Below are positions 2,250-41,189 of a stretch of DNA of 64,000 bases, piece after piece. The stretch lies in assembly GCF_024125425.1 (NCBI RefSeq), contig NZ_JAMXWN010000010.1:1-64000 (forward strand), in the 5' to 3' direction. The DNA is from Sporolactobacillus kofuensis (GTDB taxonomy: Bacteria; Bacillota; Bacilli; Bacillales; Sporolactobacillaceae). Position 1 is the stretch's first letter, and each line of letters begins with the position of its first letter. Below the pieces are notes generated by a model. The model was not told where the DNA came from, searched no databases, and worked only from the letters and a program-made list of their open reading frames with translations. Both the position numbers and the translations under genes were made by a program.

Positions 2250-2375
2250 CGTTCATCAGATTCATTCCCGTTGTTTTCGTCTAAATTTTTCTATGAAGCA
2301 TGCGCACTGTTTAAAATGAATGACTCATCCAAATGGCACGGCTGCAGGCGACCTGAATCACCTTTATGCTTTAAG

Positions 2376-2414
2376 AAAAAGCTCCCGTCCACATTATGTG
2401 AACGGGAGCTTTTT
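2376..2414. terminator. Bidirectional terminator between convergent genes
   Basis: AAAAAGCTCCCGT (2376-2388) pairs perfectly with 2402-2414, and the loop holds an inner CACA/TGTG helix. The A and T runs on both sides allow termination in either direction. It serves the minus-strand BASS transporter gene. Confidence 0.8.
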
Positions 2415-2539
2415 CAAGAACGCATTTGGTGATGAAACGAAACCATCTTACGAAGAGTTGTGTCAATATAATTTTGTATTTTCTGAAATATTTGTTTTTA
2501 TGAGTTGCCGAATTCTTCAATGAAGTGTAGCGGGTACGA

Positions 2540-3523
2540 TCAGTTTGCTGTACTTGCAGCAGCATCAACATCCGTGTTCTTCACATCAGTCTCTTTTTTT
2601 CCTGCCCAGAAAGAGGCGAGAAGAGACCCGGACATGTTGTGCCAGATGCTAAACAGGGTAGCAGGAATAGCGGCAACCGGCGAGAAAAAGGCAATAGCCA
2701 GTGCGACACCGAGCGCTGAGTTCTGCATGCCAACTTCGAATGTAATTGCGCGGCTTTTGAGATGATCCATGCCGAGCAAGCGGCTGAAAAAGAAACCTAA
2801 TGAGTAGCCAAGAAGATTATGCAGGATCACAACAGGTATAATCACTAACGTGCTAGCTGTCAACAAGTCACCATTTTTGTTAGAAGCTGCAACAACACCA
2901 CCGGCGATCAGGATAATAGCGACAGTCGATACGAGTGGCAGTGCAGCGGTCACTTTGTGCACCTTCTTGCCAAAGAAGGTATTAACCAAAACACCAAGAA
3001 CGATTGGCACAATCACAATCTCCACGACACTGACAAAAAGTGAGCTTGTCGGAATCTTTACCCAATGACCCGCTAAGAGCCAAAGCATAAGAGGGAGCAT
3101 TACAGGGGCAATCAGAGTTGAAACAGCGCCAATCGAAACACCGAGTGCAACGTCGCCTTTTGCCAGAAAACACATAACATTGGAAGCCGTACCACTTGGA
3201 CAGCAGCCGACGAGGATGACGCCAACAGCAACGGCCGGAGGAAGATGAAATGCAAAACAAAGGGCGAAAGCAACGAGTGGCATGATGAGATAGTGGGCAC
3301 AAACGCCAATGATGACATCTTTAGGACGCTTGAAAACAGCAGCAAAATCAGATTTTTTCAAGGTCATGCCCATCCCAAACATGATTATGCCGAGGAGATC
3401 GTTGACATAAGGAAGTACCCAAGTGATCAGATTTGGCTGAAAATAGCTGACAGCTGCCGCTGCCAAAACGAAGAGTGCGAAATACTTGCCCAAGAACTGT
3501 CCTGTTGAAACAACAACTTTCAT
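2540..3523 (-). CDS. BASS-family (bile acid:sodium symporter-like) transporter
   Basis: This 327-residue membrane protein has about nine hydrophobic segments and the family signature GCCPSGTASNV in the middle. Bacterial members move organic anions with sodium; one of them, PanS of Salmonella, carries ketopantoate. Because the gene follows ilvD (86-nt gap, same strand), a branched-chain 2-keto acid or ketopantoate is a reasonable guess for the substrate. I start it at the second possible methionine (MKVVVSTGQFLG), which has AAAGGATG 9 nt upstream; a start 25 codons earlier has no ribosome site. A hairpin (3577-3582 with 3598-3603, no U-run) lies between the two genes and may tune the expression ratio. 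Confidence 0.8.
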   Translation of the reverse strand: MKVVVSTGQFLGKYFALFVLAAAAVSYFQPNLITWVLPYVNDLLGIIMFGMGMTLKKSDFAAVFKRPKDVIIGVCAHYLIMPLVAFALCFAFHLPPAVAVGVILVGCCPSGTASNVMCFLAKGDVALGVSIGAVSTLIAPVMLPLMLWLLAGHWVKIPTSSLFVSVVEIVIVPIVLGVLVNTFFGKKVHKVTAALPLVSTVAIILIAGGVVAASNKNGDLLTASTLVIIPVVILHNLLGYSLGFFFSRLLGMDHLKSRAITFEVGMQNSALGVALAIAFFSPVAAIPATLFSIWHNMSGSLLASFWAGKKETDVKNTDVDAAASTAN

Positions 3524-3609
3524 AATGCAACATCCTTTCCATTTTCGTATCTCTTTAAGTTTTTTTATTAAAGCAGGGTGATCTTCTGTTTTTTTCAATC
3601 ACCGCTTTA

Positions 3610-5337
3610 TCACTGGACAGGGTCTGTTTCTTTCTCTGTTTGCTCTGCCTGAGCCCATGCTTCAGGCAGACGCATCACACCACCTGTATGGGCGGAAGTG
3701 ACAAGCGCAGCATAACGCGCGAGATAACCTGAGCGAACCTTTGGCACAAAAGGTTTTAATAATTTGCGTCGTTCCTTAAGTTCGGCATCAGTCACATCGA
3801 GATGTACGGTTCGTGCTAACAGATCAATGGTGATCTGGTCTCCATCCTGAACAAGCGCGATCGGTCCGCCGGCTGCGGCTTCTGGTGATACATGGCCAAC
3901 AGAAAGTCCACGCGTCGCTCCGGAAAAACGTCCATCGGTGATCAGAGCGACATCTTTGCCAAGGCCACGTCCGACAATTGATGAAGTCGGTGCCAGCATT
4001 TCCGGCATACCCGGGCCGCCTTTTGGCCCCTCATAGCGGATGACGACAACATGTCCCTTGTGGACGGTATGATTGTCGATCGCCTCGACTGCTTCATCGT
4101 GAGAATTGAAACAAATGGCTTCGCCTGAAAATGTTTTGACCGAAGGATCAACACCACCAACTTTAATGACCGCTCCTTTTGGCGCAATGTTTCCGAAGAG
4201 AACAGATAACCCACCGGTTTTACTGTAAGCCTCATCCAGTGGATGAATGACTTTTGGGTTTTTGATGTGTGCATCGGCGACATTTTCTCTAAGTGTTTGC
4301 CCGGAAACGGTGATTCGATCCGGGTGAATGACATCGCCTATGTCGGCAAGCGTTTTGATAATTGCGGAAATGCCTCCTGCTTCATGAACATCCTGCATCG
4401 AGAATGAAGAACTTGGAGCTATTTTTGCGAGGTAGGGCACTTTTTCCGCCACTTGATTAATTCGATCGAGATCATAGTCGATGCCGGCTTCGGAAGCCAC
4501 AGCAAGCATGTGCAGCACGGTATTGGTAGATCCGCCCATTGCCATGTCGAGTGCGAATGCATCATCTACTGCTTCGGGGGTGATAATATCCCTTGGACGG
4601 ACATTGTTTTTTACGAGATCCATTAATTTTAAGGCGGATTGCTTGATCAGATCACGCCTTTCTTCGGACACCGCAAGAGCTGTTCCATTTCCGGGGAGGG
4701 CGACACCGAGCATTTCCATTAAGCAGTTCATTGAATTAGCAGTAAACATGCCTGCACAGGAACCACAGGTCGGACAGGCGGAGGCTTCAAGATCCAGAAA
4801 TTGTTCTTTTGTGATTTGCCCTTCTTTAAAAGCTCCTACGCCTTCAAATACGGATGAGAGCGTCAGTGCTTTCCCCTGAGCGGACAGTCCCGCTTTCATT
4901 GGTCCTCCGGAACAGAAGATAGCAGGTACATTCGTTCGAACAGCAGCAAGCAGCATTCCTGGGGTGATTTTATCGCAGTTTGGGATGTAGAATACCCCGT
5001 CGAACCAGTGCGCGTTAATCATCGTCTCAGCTGCATCCGCAATCAGTTCACGGCTTGGTAGAGAATACCGCATGCCAATATGGCCCATAGCGATGCCATC
5101 GTCAACACCGATTGTGTTAAATTCGAACGGAATCCCGCCAGCATCACGAATTGCTTGCTTGGCGACATCTGCCAATTCTCTTAAATGAACATGTCCTGGG
5201 ACAATGTCTACATAGGAGTTGCATACCGCAATAAACGGTTTATGCATATCCTCTTCATTTCGTACAATACCAGTAGCGCGTAACAAGCTTCGTGCCGGTG
5301 CACGATCCACACCTTTCTTAATTTCATCACTTCTCAA
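3610..5337 (-). CDS. ilvD: Dihydroxy-acid dehydratase
   Basis: IlvD dehydrates 2,3-dihydroxy-isovalerate and 2,3-dihydroxy-3-methylvalerate to the 2-keto acids that become valine, leucine, isoleucine and pantothenate. The 575 residues cover the whole family. The cluster-binding cysteines are visible in [12 protein letters not shown] and in [13 protein letters not shown]. The start is TTG, set by GAAAGGATG about 7 nt upstream; no ATG fits. No other ilv or leu gene is present, so ilvD is separated from the rest of the pathway here. Transcription should come from the promoter near 5597 through the attenuator at 5378-5523. Confidence 0.97.
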
Positions 5338-5377: not shown

Positions 5378-5412
5378 AAAAAACTCCCATTTGATATACA
5401 AATGGGAGTTTT
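5378..5412 (-). terminator. Attenuator terminator upstream of ilvD
   Basis: On the minus strand a 14-bp stem with a 5-nt loop (5399-5412 with 5380-5393) is followed by a run of six T. It lies 41 nt before the ilvD start codon, so it must be read through for ilvD to be expressed. Its left arm is also complementary to 5419-5427 (see the leader region). Confidence 0.9.
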
Positions 5413-5523
5413 GTCCGGCTCCCATTTAACGCCAATGAGGACCCGGACAATCGTGTTTAATTTTCAACGATTGCCTAGGCCCTAAATAATAATGACGACT
5501 CGTAAATGGGATTGGAATGACAT
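5413..5523 (-). promoter_or_regulatory. ilvD leader with mutually exclusive hairpins
   Basis: Four complementary blocks can be read on the minus strand. Region 1 (5503-5511, TCCCATTTA) lies inside the leader-peptide codons. Region 2 (5419-5428, TAAATGGGAG) pairs with region 1 or with region 3. Region 3 (5399-5412) pairs with region 2 or with region 4 (5380-5393), the latter giving the terminator. Region 2 is also flanked by GTCCGG/CCGGAC, and a further hairpin CAATCGT/ACGATTG lies between. This is the classic layout of ribosome-mediated attenuation. A ribosome stalled at the Val/Ile codons would cover region 1 and free region 2 for antitermination. Confidence 0.75.
5482..5523 (-). CDS. Leader peptide of the ilvD attenuator (13 residues)
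   Basis: The short frame reads MSFQSHLRVVIII and ends in TAG. Six of its last seven residues are Leu, Val or Ile, with five Val/Ile codons in a row just before the stop, as in known ilv leader peptides. AAGAGG (minus strand, at 5533-5538) is 9 nt before the ATG. The frame lies between a good promoter and the attenuator terminator. It is too short to be a protein by itself; translation past the Val/Ile codons is the likely signal. Confidence 0.75.
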   Translation of the reverse strand: MSFQSHLRVVIII

Positions 5524-5573
5524 AATAATCAGCCTCTTCAAAAAAATTAGAATTGGTTTTTTGCGTGGTCTCA

Positions 5574-5602
5574 AATATAGCACTCGATTTTTTATCCGTC
5601 AA
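5574..5602 (-). promoter_or_regulatory. Promoter of the ilvD leader
   Basis: On the minus strand TTGACG (5597-5602) and TATATT (5574-5579) are 17 bp apart. Transcription should start near 5567, about 45 nt before the leader-peptide ATG. Confidence 0.7.
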
Positions 5603-14583: not shown

Positions 14584-16254
14584 ATGACGATTGTTGAACA
14601 GGTCAAGAATCAATTAAAAGAAGAAATAATAAATGCAGTGATCAAAGCAGGACTTGCGGAGGCTGAAGAAGTACCGGATGTTGTCCTTGAAGTGCCGAAG
14701 GATAAAGCACATGGCGATTTTGCCACGAATATGGCCATGCAGCTCGCTCGGATCGCAAGAAAGGCACCGAGAAAAATCGCAGAAGAGTTGACCGGTAATT
14801 TTGATAAAGAGAAAGGGCATATCCGCAAGATCGAAATTGCAGGTCCTGGATTTATTAATTTCTTCCTTGATAACCGCTATTTGACAGACCTCATCCCGGC
14901 AATTATTGAAGCTGGCGATCAGTATGGTGCTTCGAAGAGTGGAGCAGGAAAAAAGGTTCTTGTTGAATTTGTTTCTGCGAATCCGACGGGCAGCTTACAT
15001 TTAGGGCATGGACGCGGTGCGGCGGTTGGCGATGCACTGTGCAAATTGTTGAGCAAAGCGGGTTATCAAGCGGTTCCGGAATACTATATTAATGACGGCG
15101 GGAATCAAATCACGAATTTGGCGGTATCCATTGAAGCCAGGTACTTGCAGGCACTAGGTCAAGATGCCGACATTCCCGAAAATGGTTATCACGGAAAAGA
15201 TATTATTGAACTGGCGAAGCGTTTGGTCGAAGAATACGGAGATGCATTGGCGAAAAAAGCGAAAGAAGAACGGATCCGATTCTTCCGCAACTTTGGTGTG
15301 GAACATCTCATGAGCGGCATTAAGAAAGATTTAGCTGATTTCCGTGTACATTTTGATCAATGGTTTTCAGAACGTTCTTTGTATGAAGAACACAAGGTTG
15401 AGGAAGCTCTTGATTTCTTGAAAAATAAAGGGGAAACCTATGAAAAAGACGGTGCTTTGTGGCTGCAAACCACTAAATATGGTGACGACAAGGACCGTGT
15501 ATTGGTAAAATCCGACGGCAGTTATACTTATTTCATGCCTGATATCGCTTATCACAAAAATAAGCTTGATCGCGGATTTGAACAGCTGATTGATGTATTT
15601 GGTGCGGATCATCATGGCTATGTTCCTCGATTGAAAGCGGCAATCCAATCCTTAGGCTACAATCCGGATCAATTAACTGTCCAGATCATTCAGCTCGTAA
15701 ATCTTTTCAAAAATGGCGAAAAATTTAAGATGAGCAAACGTACCGGGAAAGCCGTGACCATGCGTGAATTGATGGAAGATGTCGGTGTTGATGCTGCACG
15801 CTATTTCTTCGCCATGCGCAGTTCGGATAGTCATCTTGACTTTGATTTGGATCTTGCCCTATCACATTCAAATGAGAACCCGGTTTACTATGTTCAATAT
15901 GCTTATGCGCGCATCAGCAGTATGCTCAAACGTGCAGAACAATTCGAACAAGGGAACGTTGCTGAACTCGATTTAAGCTTACTCTCTGGTGAAAAGGAAA
16001 TTGACCTATTAAAGAAGTTAGGTGATTTTCCAGCTGTTGTTTCCGATAGCGCAGCAAAGTTGGCAATTCAACATATTCCTGCTTACCTGTTCGACTTAGC
16101 GTCATGCCTGCATAGTTTCTATAATGCGGAAAAAGTACTAGACGAGCGTAATCTCGAACTCAGCAAGGCGAGAGTAGCGTTGATGAAAGCTGTGCGTATC
16201 ACATTAAAGAACGGTATGGAGCTTATTGGTGTCCATGCACCGGAGCAGATGTAA
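14584..16254 (+). CDS. argS: Arginyl-tRNA synthetase
   Basis: ArgS charges tRNA-Arg with arginine in the cytoplasm. The 556-residue class I synthetase has the N-terminal Arg-specific domain, the HIGH-type motif in [15 protein letters not shown] (near residue 137), the KMSKR motif in [11 protein letters not shown] (near 380) and the C-terminal anticodon-binding domain ([16 protein letters not shown]). TGGAGGG is 7 nt from the ATG. A terminator follows directly. Confidence 0.98.
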
Positions 16255-16272
16255 AAGGATTAAATAAGAAGT

Positions 16273-16306
16273 AAAAAACAGCCTCCAATTGCGGAGGCTG
16301 TTTTTT
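16273..16306 (+). terminator. Terminator after argS
   Basis: A perfect 14-bp stem (16273-16286 with 16293-16306) with a 6-nt loop ends in six T. Confidence 0.9.
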
Positions 16307-16451
16307 AACGAAAAGAAAGGATAAAACTTTTTGTTTAAAATTGCACCAAGATGTGCGACGTCTTCGGCAATTAATCGATCGAAACGCAATTCATACCCAA
16401 TAAAGATTCAGTGGTATTGCCCAGTTGTCTTACGTGCAGATGCAATTTATC

Positions 16452-39524: not shown

Positions 39525-41189
<1,665 letters not shown>

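Follow-up and report, generated by a model that had tools for sequence, protein, structure and literature searches.

A probable leader-peptide attenuator upstream of ilvD in Sporolactobacillus kofuensis, with relatives in other Bacilli and copies before other genes of the genus

The ilv and leu attenuators of enterobacteria and of Corynebacterium follow the same logic of control codons, stalled ribosome and alternative hairpins that is proposed here for a leader of Sporolactobacillus.

Attenuators of this kind are already known within Bacillales, and the excerpts of the literature used here describe two. In Listeria monocytogenes, Rli60 is a ribosome-mediated attenuator of ilv-leu, as judged from mutants of the ribosome binding site, the ATG and the terminator, together with reporters (PMC5864092). 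In Staphylococcus aureus, an attenuator at ilvD has suppressor and reporter evidence behind it (PMC5794164), and an excerpt of a 2025 paper equates Rli60 with that S. aureus leader (PMC12333996). Leader peptides were predicted in bacilli as early as 2010, including a his leader common to hisS* and hisZ (PMC2965389, in excerpt). The available sections of a paper on small open reading frames in S. aureus contain no ilvD (PMC13009471). Searches of the open-licence literature turned up nothing on the Sporolactobacillus leader or its copies, and nothing on attenuation in connection with Sporolactobacillus or with ketopantoate reductase.

The window analyzed here is a stretch of 64,000 nucleotides of S. 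kofuensis DNA. Reading its sequence places the following elements on the minus strand.

5574 to 5602, minus strand: promoter, with the -35 hexamer TTGACG at 5602-5597, a spacer of 17 bases, TATATT at 5579-5574, and TG ahead of the second hexamer
5533 to 5538, minus strand: ribosome binding site of the leader peptide, AAGAGG
5482 to 5523, minus strand: leader open reading frame, MSFQSHLRVVIII-stop, with ATG at 5523-5521, 13 codons, and TAG at 5484-5482
5501 to 5511, minus strand: block 1, TCCCATTTACG, within leader codons 5-8; its partner is block 2
5438 to 5483, minus strand: central hairpin, 5' arm 5483-5468 and 3' arm 5453-5438, from folds and a swap test
5419 to 5431, minus strand: block 2, CGTTAAATGGGAG, for which blocks 1 and 3 and the 3' arm of the central hairpin compete
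5399 to 5412, minus strand: block 3, 5' arm of the terminator and antiterminator partner of block 2
5378 to 5393, minus strand: block 4 (5393-5380) and T run (5383-5378), completing the terminator, from folds
3610 to 5337, minus strand: ilvD, dihydroxy-acid dehydratase, TIGR00110 at 786.4 bits (cut-off 618.15)
2540 to 3598, minus strand: gene for a BASS-family transporter; the nearest NCBIfam model is PanS, at 292 bits, under its cut-off of 400

The two promoter hexamers match the consensus at 10 of 12 positions. Four promoter-like sites are observed in the leader region against 2.3 expected from shuffles, so the promoter call is weak on its own; promoter-like sequences are also seen by eye at the equivalent place in the relatives compared. 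In the alignment columns that hold the ribosome binding site, six other rows carry GAGG or AAGG, and the remaining six rows start later. The leader peptide has the residues M S F Q S H L R V V I I I, with candidate control codons GTC GTC ATT ATT ATT at 5499-5485 of the minus strand. Between blocks 1 and 2 sits the central hairpin, the 5' arm of which starts inside the leader stop codon, and the 3' arm of which would pair with 5424-5412.

Blocks 3 and 4 make a hairpin of 14 pairs with the T run, and the fold of 5378-5540 reaches -58.8 kcal/mol (z -5.8), equally good folds being found in none of 200 shuffles. A pattern scan for terminators returned none at the leader, against 0.3 expected, perhaps because the T run is mostly paired within the stem. 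What is found, then, is a short predicted reading frame, rich in codons for the end products, that lies beside or overlaps alternative hairpins, which is the mark of an attenuator. The original prediction had these parts right. Its promoter, ribosome binding site and 13-codon peptide are found within the coordinates that it gave; block 1, which it set inside the leader codons at 5503-5511, is drawn here as 5501-5511; and the last two of its four pairing blocks do form the terminator.

The gene under the attenuator is ilvD, an intact frame of 575 codons with 95% identity to the ilvD of S. laevolacticus. The BASS gene behind it likely shares the ilvD transcript, and attenuator control probably extends to it. 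A BASS-like reading frame follows ilvD, by eye, in 10 of 12 loci of the genus; loci L010 and L011 end shortly past ilvD. Elsewhere in the window, at 39571-39636 of the plus strand, there is a match to the Rfam Bacillaceae-1 RNA (46.5 bits). A weak match to one of our models, R3, at 16267-16374 of the minus strand (23.8 bits, E 0.026), directly behind a reading frame that ends at 16254, is perhaps just a terminator.

To place this leader among its relatives, 80 ilvD loci were compared, with upstream regions of up to 600 bases (less for L015, L055, L059 and L074). A leader was recognized in 38 of them: 12 from Sporolactobacillus, 12 from Staphylococcus or Mammaliicoccus, and 14 others, nine of these from Enterococcus. 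No such leader was recognized in the other 42, which include loci from Bacillus, Lysinibacillus and Oceanobacillus. The set was built from 11 of the 12 Sporolactobacillus loci flagged by script (L003 had been filtered out though its leader is present) and 23 others so flagged and kept, with L017, L021 and L038 added upon reading the sequences. Seven further loci (L037, L039, L050, L063, L066, L073 and L077) were flagged and are not counted, no matching arrangement being seen by eye; the two of them that were given to a model, L037 and L039, had no match. In the alignments, A2 and A4 leave out L036, and A3 leaves out L006, L007, L120, L155, L156, L163 and the Leu-rich class described below.

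Models built on either side of the genus boundary find the leaders on the other side. A model from 25 leaders outside the genus recovers all 13 Sporolactobacillus ilvD leaders, with E from 1.6e-9 to 0.007; the leader of the window is its top match within the window (46.8 bits, E 3e-7), and it also finds, at E 3e-5, a second leader of S. kofuensis, ahead of a panE-family gene. Conversely, a model from Sporolactobacillus alone detects every one of the 26 leaders from outside it (E no higher than 2e-4), and at E < 0.05 finds none among the 14 leaderless ilvD loci, of the 42, that were given to it. A pooled model, used at E 0.001, has matches in 60 of 398 sampled genomes of the class, belonging to 16 of 145 genera; at E 0.01 it has matches in 17 of the 26 genomes of the family, of which 15 are Sporolactobacillus itself.

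The connection to Listeria runs through Rfam. Two staphylococcal leaders match rli60 (RF02414) at 143.7 and 136 bits, while six other loci searched alongside have no RF02414 match. The leader of the window aligns to RF02414 end to end and in the right place, at 21.7 bits and E 1.3. This is under the gathering score of 60, which makes it a divergent homologue, and not a member of rli60 by Rfam's rule. That low-threshold search, over 331 bases, gave 14 matches up to E 5 on both strands; the 13 others, PyrR and Termite-leu among them, are regarded as chance, and rli60 was singled out as a leader of ilvD in Listeria that its staphylococcal relatives match strongly. Within the genus, rli60 has matches at 27.9 to 39 bits in four of 15 genomes, S. 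kofuensis not among them (two are ilvD leaders, two are leaders without a gene), in a search in which two control genomes matched as well, with E up to 1. In 299 genomes of the order no rli60 match was found at E 0.001, and no control was matched either, so this is no proof of absence.

Like Rli60 as described in the excerpt (PMC5864092), the leader of S. kofuensis lies upstream of ilvD, has a predicted 13-residue peptide rich in BCAA, and has four segments with a terminator and a proposed antiterminator. It differs in that Sporolactobacillus has copies before other genes; the likeness is drawn through the Rfam model. With the S. aureus leader, for which other staphylococci stood in, it shares homology by the reciprocal models, together with the peptide, the central hairpin, a block 2 with GGGA, and the terminator. 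However, the S. aureus peptide has 26 residues, with Ile and then Leu, and the best staphylococcal candidates for block 1 precede the start codon and thus lie outside the codons. The suppressor mutations of S. aureus (PMC5794164, in excerpt) were mapped onto two relatives; two registers fit, and no placement is claimed.

Within Sporolactobacillus, a model search finds the leader upstream of ilvD in all 15 whole genomes, S. kofuensis included, and each has a homologous leader peptide ahead of the gene. The 12 loci gathered by ilvD similarity likewise all have the same leader parts. Peptide length varies across the genus from 13 to 22 residues, and runs of Val, Leu and Ile come at the end or close to it.

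The pairings were examined by swap tests, in which native duplexes are set against duplexes whose arms are swapped between species. For 1:2, the native mean is -23.5 kcal/mol against -17.3 kcal/mol for the swapped duplexes (0 of 20000 permutations, and again 0 of 20000 with other block bounds); the window's native 1:2 energy is the fourth in its row of swaps, and that of THM19-2 the sixth. Along the 1:2 helix, two-sided changes occur at every position from -10 to -1, counted back from the GGG of block 2, in a pair-by-pair listing where the pairs were picked by energy and the swap test serves as the control. In a plain alignment, nine of 37 predicted pairs still pair through two-sided changes. 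The 3:4 terminator also gives 0 of 20000, and the central hairpin covaries moderately (47 of 20000). No covariation within the genus is seen by this test for the 2:3 antiterminator (12628 of 20000) or for capture of block 2 by the 3' arm of the central hairpin (2415 of 20000).

Outside the genus, the Enterococcus group gives 8, 2 and 184 of 20000 for 1:2, the central hairpin and capture, with no covariation in 2:3 (3928 of 20000). Staphylococcus gives 181 of 20000 for 1:2 and 1026 for the central hairpin; here, capture (20000 of 20000) and 2:3 (7698 of 20000) lack covariation. When 39 leaders are pooled over three bacterial groups in a test that is blind to kinship, 2:3 reaches 1 of 20000 (37 distinct pairs), and capture reaches 0 of 20000 (36 distinct pairs). 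As a rule, these pooled signals come from the base that follows GGGA, which varies between groups together with its partner. The 2:3 pairing can form in the compared leaders, with covariation seen only in the pooled, kinship-blind test, and the terminator is present, with 3:4 covarying. The antiterminator published for S. aureus pairs GAAUGG with the U tract of the terminator (PMC5794164, in excerpt); the pooled comparison favors, instead, pairing between block 2 and the terminator's 5' arm.

In two near-identical species (genomes G009, with leaders L105 and L191, and G010, with L108 and L192), the TAG of the leader reads CAG, both before ilvD and before the reductase gene of the panE family. 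Both peptides therefore extend into the central hairpin and end later. This is a parallel change in the two leaders.

What a ribosome would do to these pairings was modeled by folding the RNA as far as block 3 with the ribosome's footprint masked, in a static model that ignores the speed of transcription. In the window, at the stage when block 4 is still to be made, 9.4-9.6 pairs of 2:3 are expected with V9, V10 or I11 in the A site. The number falls to 1.1 at I12, to 0.3 at I13 and to 0.0 at the stop codon, and it is 1.3 in ribosome-free RNA, where 15.5 pairs of 1:2 are expected. In 12 of 13 species, the expected 2:3 pairs number at least 7.6 at one or another codon for Val, Leu or Ile, and at most 3.1 at the stop codon. 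THM19-2 misfits the model, with 2:3 favored both ribosome-free (10.7) and at the stop codon (9.3), and putidus is leaky in the absence of a ribosome (4.7 expected 2:3 pairs). With the ribosome at the stop codon, the central 3' arm holds block 2 by at least 5 expected pairs in 10 of 13 species (9.0 in the window), and 1:2 forms in six of 13 (0.0 in the window). Ribosome positions upstream of the control codons likewise yield high 2:3. The model does poorly on leaders from outside the genus: among six, the contrast between stall and stop is clear in L013 and L020, weak in L016, and absent or reversed in L029, L035 and L044; ribosome-free RNA favors 2:3 in five of the six.

We consider it very probable, from all this, that the ilvD leader is a ribosome-mediated transcription attenuator, homologous to the leaders of Staphylococcus and Enterococcus and, via the rli60 model, to that of Listeria. 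Three elements would vie for block 2 here: blocks 1 and 3 and the 3' arm of the central hairpin. In RNA that is free of ribosomes, or after release, block 1 would pair with block 2, the 3:4 hairpin would form, and transcription would stop. With amino acids sufficient, the ribosome would get as far as the stop codon and there open the central hairpin on its 5' side; the 3' arm, set free, would capture block 2, and transcription would again terminate. Under a shortage of charged Val- or Ile-tRNA, the ribosome would stall at V9, V10 or I11 and cover block 1, leaving the central hairpin closed, so that block 2 would pair with block 3 and transcription would read through into ilvD. Two brakes, 1:2 in ribosome-free RNA and capture at the stop codon, would therefore, by the folding, hold block 2 unless a ribosome stalls on the first control codons. 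That 2:3 forms, that the central hairpin captures block 2, and that these particular codons are the critical ones, are suggested by the folding and the pooled comparison; that the leader responds to the supply of amino acids is expected by analogy with the papers on its relatives.

A different weighting of the same parts has the ribosome acting mainly via the central hairpin near the stop codon, block 1 merely restraining RNA that carries no ribosome. The 0.0 against 9.0 expected pairs in the window at the stop codon would suit it, as would the position of the best block-1 duplex in other groups: before the start codon in Staphylococcus and around it in most leaders of the Enterococcus group (L015 and L038 being exceptions), away from the control codons. 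We regard it as unlikely, however, given that block 1 in Sporolactobacillus directly precedes the control codons, within reach of the cover of a stalled ribosome, that it is kept by compensatory change, and that the folding has 1:2 forming at the stop codon in those six of 13 species.

The original prediction, which proposed a Val/Ile leader-peptide attenuator on ilvD, with a 1:2, 2:3 and 3:4 logic, thus stands in its main picture. The check that it had named, covariation among related ilvD leaders, finds the peptide and the blocks kept, with compensatory changes in 1:2. It had missed the central hairpin between blocks 1 and 2, the second competitor for block 2, as well as the copies elsewhere, and its view that the system was undescribed and unusual in Bacillales fails, since Rli60 and the S. 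aureus attenuator were known and the reciprocal models tie the leader by homology to those of ilvD in Staphylococcus and Enterococcus.

What is new are the copies: leaders before a panE-family gene in every genome of the genus, before a second BASS gene, and at orphan sites. A homologous leader precedes a gene of the panE/apbA family in 15 of 15 Sporolactobacillus genomes. In S. kofuensis its peptide is MFRPRTNELIVILIS (G000:C23:126214-126345, minus strand; locus L149), and the gene matches TIGR00745 at 232.2 bits (cut-off 141.35); in the other 14 genomes the gene was recognized by eye from its first residues. Swap tests on 13 of these leaders give 0 of 20000 for 1:2 and for 3:4 and 6 of 20000 for the central hairpin, with no covariation for 2:3 (2766 of 20000) or capture (2609 of 20000), and folding of the S. 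kofuensis panE-family leader gives the same contrast between stall and stop as the ilvD leader. In these tests on copy classes, the block bounds set by script are off in L153, L117, L157 and L161, and a mixed group of five was not used. The genes behind the panE-family gene at L149 look, by eye, like genes of deoxynucleoside catabolism.

A copy before a second BASS gene is found in two genomes, and a degenerate one in a third. The window holds a decayed example.

2290 to 2475, minus strand: decayed second attenuator, model R2 at 29.8 bits, E 0.0013

Its -35 side and terminator remain, the leader reading frame and central hairpin are gone, and no second BASS gene stands behind it. Compared by blastn with L151/L001 of S. 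laevolacticus, it has a gap of 127 bases.

Ten of the 15 genomes also have leaders with no clear gene behind them. The three that could be read far enough (L116, L117 and L119) stand opposite an ilvB-type frame, L117 lying ahead of a broken ilvD-like frame. In these ten genomes ilvC is about 3 kb from the orphan leader, on the other strand, and in G006, G007 and G014 the ilvD leader itself stands at this same distance from ilvC. The orphan leaders therefore probably mark the place where ilvD once stood. Those near ilvBC (L116, L117, L118-L120, L150, L152 and L154-L156) have a well-kept peptide (MNRPLQRMVKAIIIIS and alike); their role could be that of small RNAs, or they could be remnants. Their class, D in our numbering, has no covariation in 1:2 (6170 of 20000, from seven distinct leaders with little variation).

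At nine loci (L166, L170, L172, L174-L177, L180 and L182), a Leu-rich leader reading frame (RRLQNLL and alike), a hairpin and a terminator precede genes for MFS transporters or prpB-like genes. Their match to the models is weak, about 28 to 41 bits, and their terminator covaries (0 of 20000). These are not claimed as working attenuators, because 1:2 (15363 of 20000), 2:3 (19800) and the central hairpin (18719) lack covariation. Loci L178, L179 and L181, which lack a leader, were dropped, and L163 is degenerate.

The setting of ilvD in S. kofuensis puts the purpose of the switch in doubt. Its genome, 99.75% complete, has no match to PF01450, the ilvC family, which is present in 13 of the 15 genomes of the genus, and no acetolactate synthase ilvB over the cut-off of the anabolic family (best 372.2 against 538.35 bits). 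Thus, ilvD stands without its usual pathway, and S. kofuensis is likely a BCAA auxotroph that has kept ilvD. One might then suppose that the attenuator no longer works or matters here, and survives just because the loss is recent. This is quite improbable. These absences would fit it, as would the rank of the window's 1:2 energy, only fourth in its row of swaps, but the ilvD leader is intact and folds like those of relatives, in contrast to the decay of the second BASS leader elsewhere in the window, and the 575-codon frame of ilvD is intact and scores above its family cut-off.

What a working switch might serve can be asked of the genes around it. In S. kofuensis, a PanS-like transporter follows ilvD, and a panE-family gene stands under the sister leader; from this one may guess at a role in the metabolism of 2-ketoacids or pantothenate. 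We would give about even chances to the view that duplicates of an ancestral attenuator of ilvD were put to new use ahead of unrelated genes, making a small regulon of ilvD, a panE-family ketopantoate or 2-ketoacid reductase, the second BASS gene, and the leaders left beside ilvBNC, which in S. kofuensis would couple the charging of BCAA-tRNAs to 2-ketoacid or pantothenate-related metabolism and no longer guard BCAA synthesis. The his leaders of bacilli also occur as leader-peptide attenuators twice per genome with highly similar 5' regions (PMC2965389, in excerpt); there the two genes are paralogues, whereas in Sporolactobacillus the homologous leaders stand before unrelated genes. This precedent for paralogous genes slightly lowers the odds that we give to a redeployed regulon.

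That the leader is, instead, a T-box or another leader that binds a tRNA or metabolite, with no translated peptide, is scarcely credible: B. subtilis ilv-leu does have a Leu T-box (PMC5794164, in excerpt), and T-box matches number 15 in the S. kofuensis genome, with 12 above the cut-off, but none of the 15 is at ilvD, no Rfam family, T-box RF00230 included, matches the ilvD leader at gathering level, a simple pattern finds no T-box motif in up to 600 bases upstream of any of the 80 ilvD genes, and the peptide is kept in all 15 genomes of the genus.

The leader is thus real and conserved, and its mechanism is clear, though partly inferred; the copies and the orphan ilvD are most worth following. 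Bacillales have been held to leave their ilv genes to T-boxes and CodY, an idea that this leader corrects. The leaders of Staphylococcus, Enterococcus and Sporolactobacillus and, via the Rfam model, Listeria make up a single RNA family in which three partners would compete for block 2, as can be tested, and for which the antiterminator is suggested to differ from the one published for S. aureus. In Sporolactobacillus, this is a peptide attenuator that has been copied before other genes, and that is kept in a species without the pathway.
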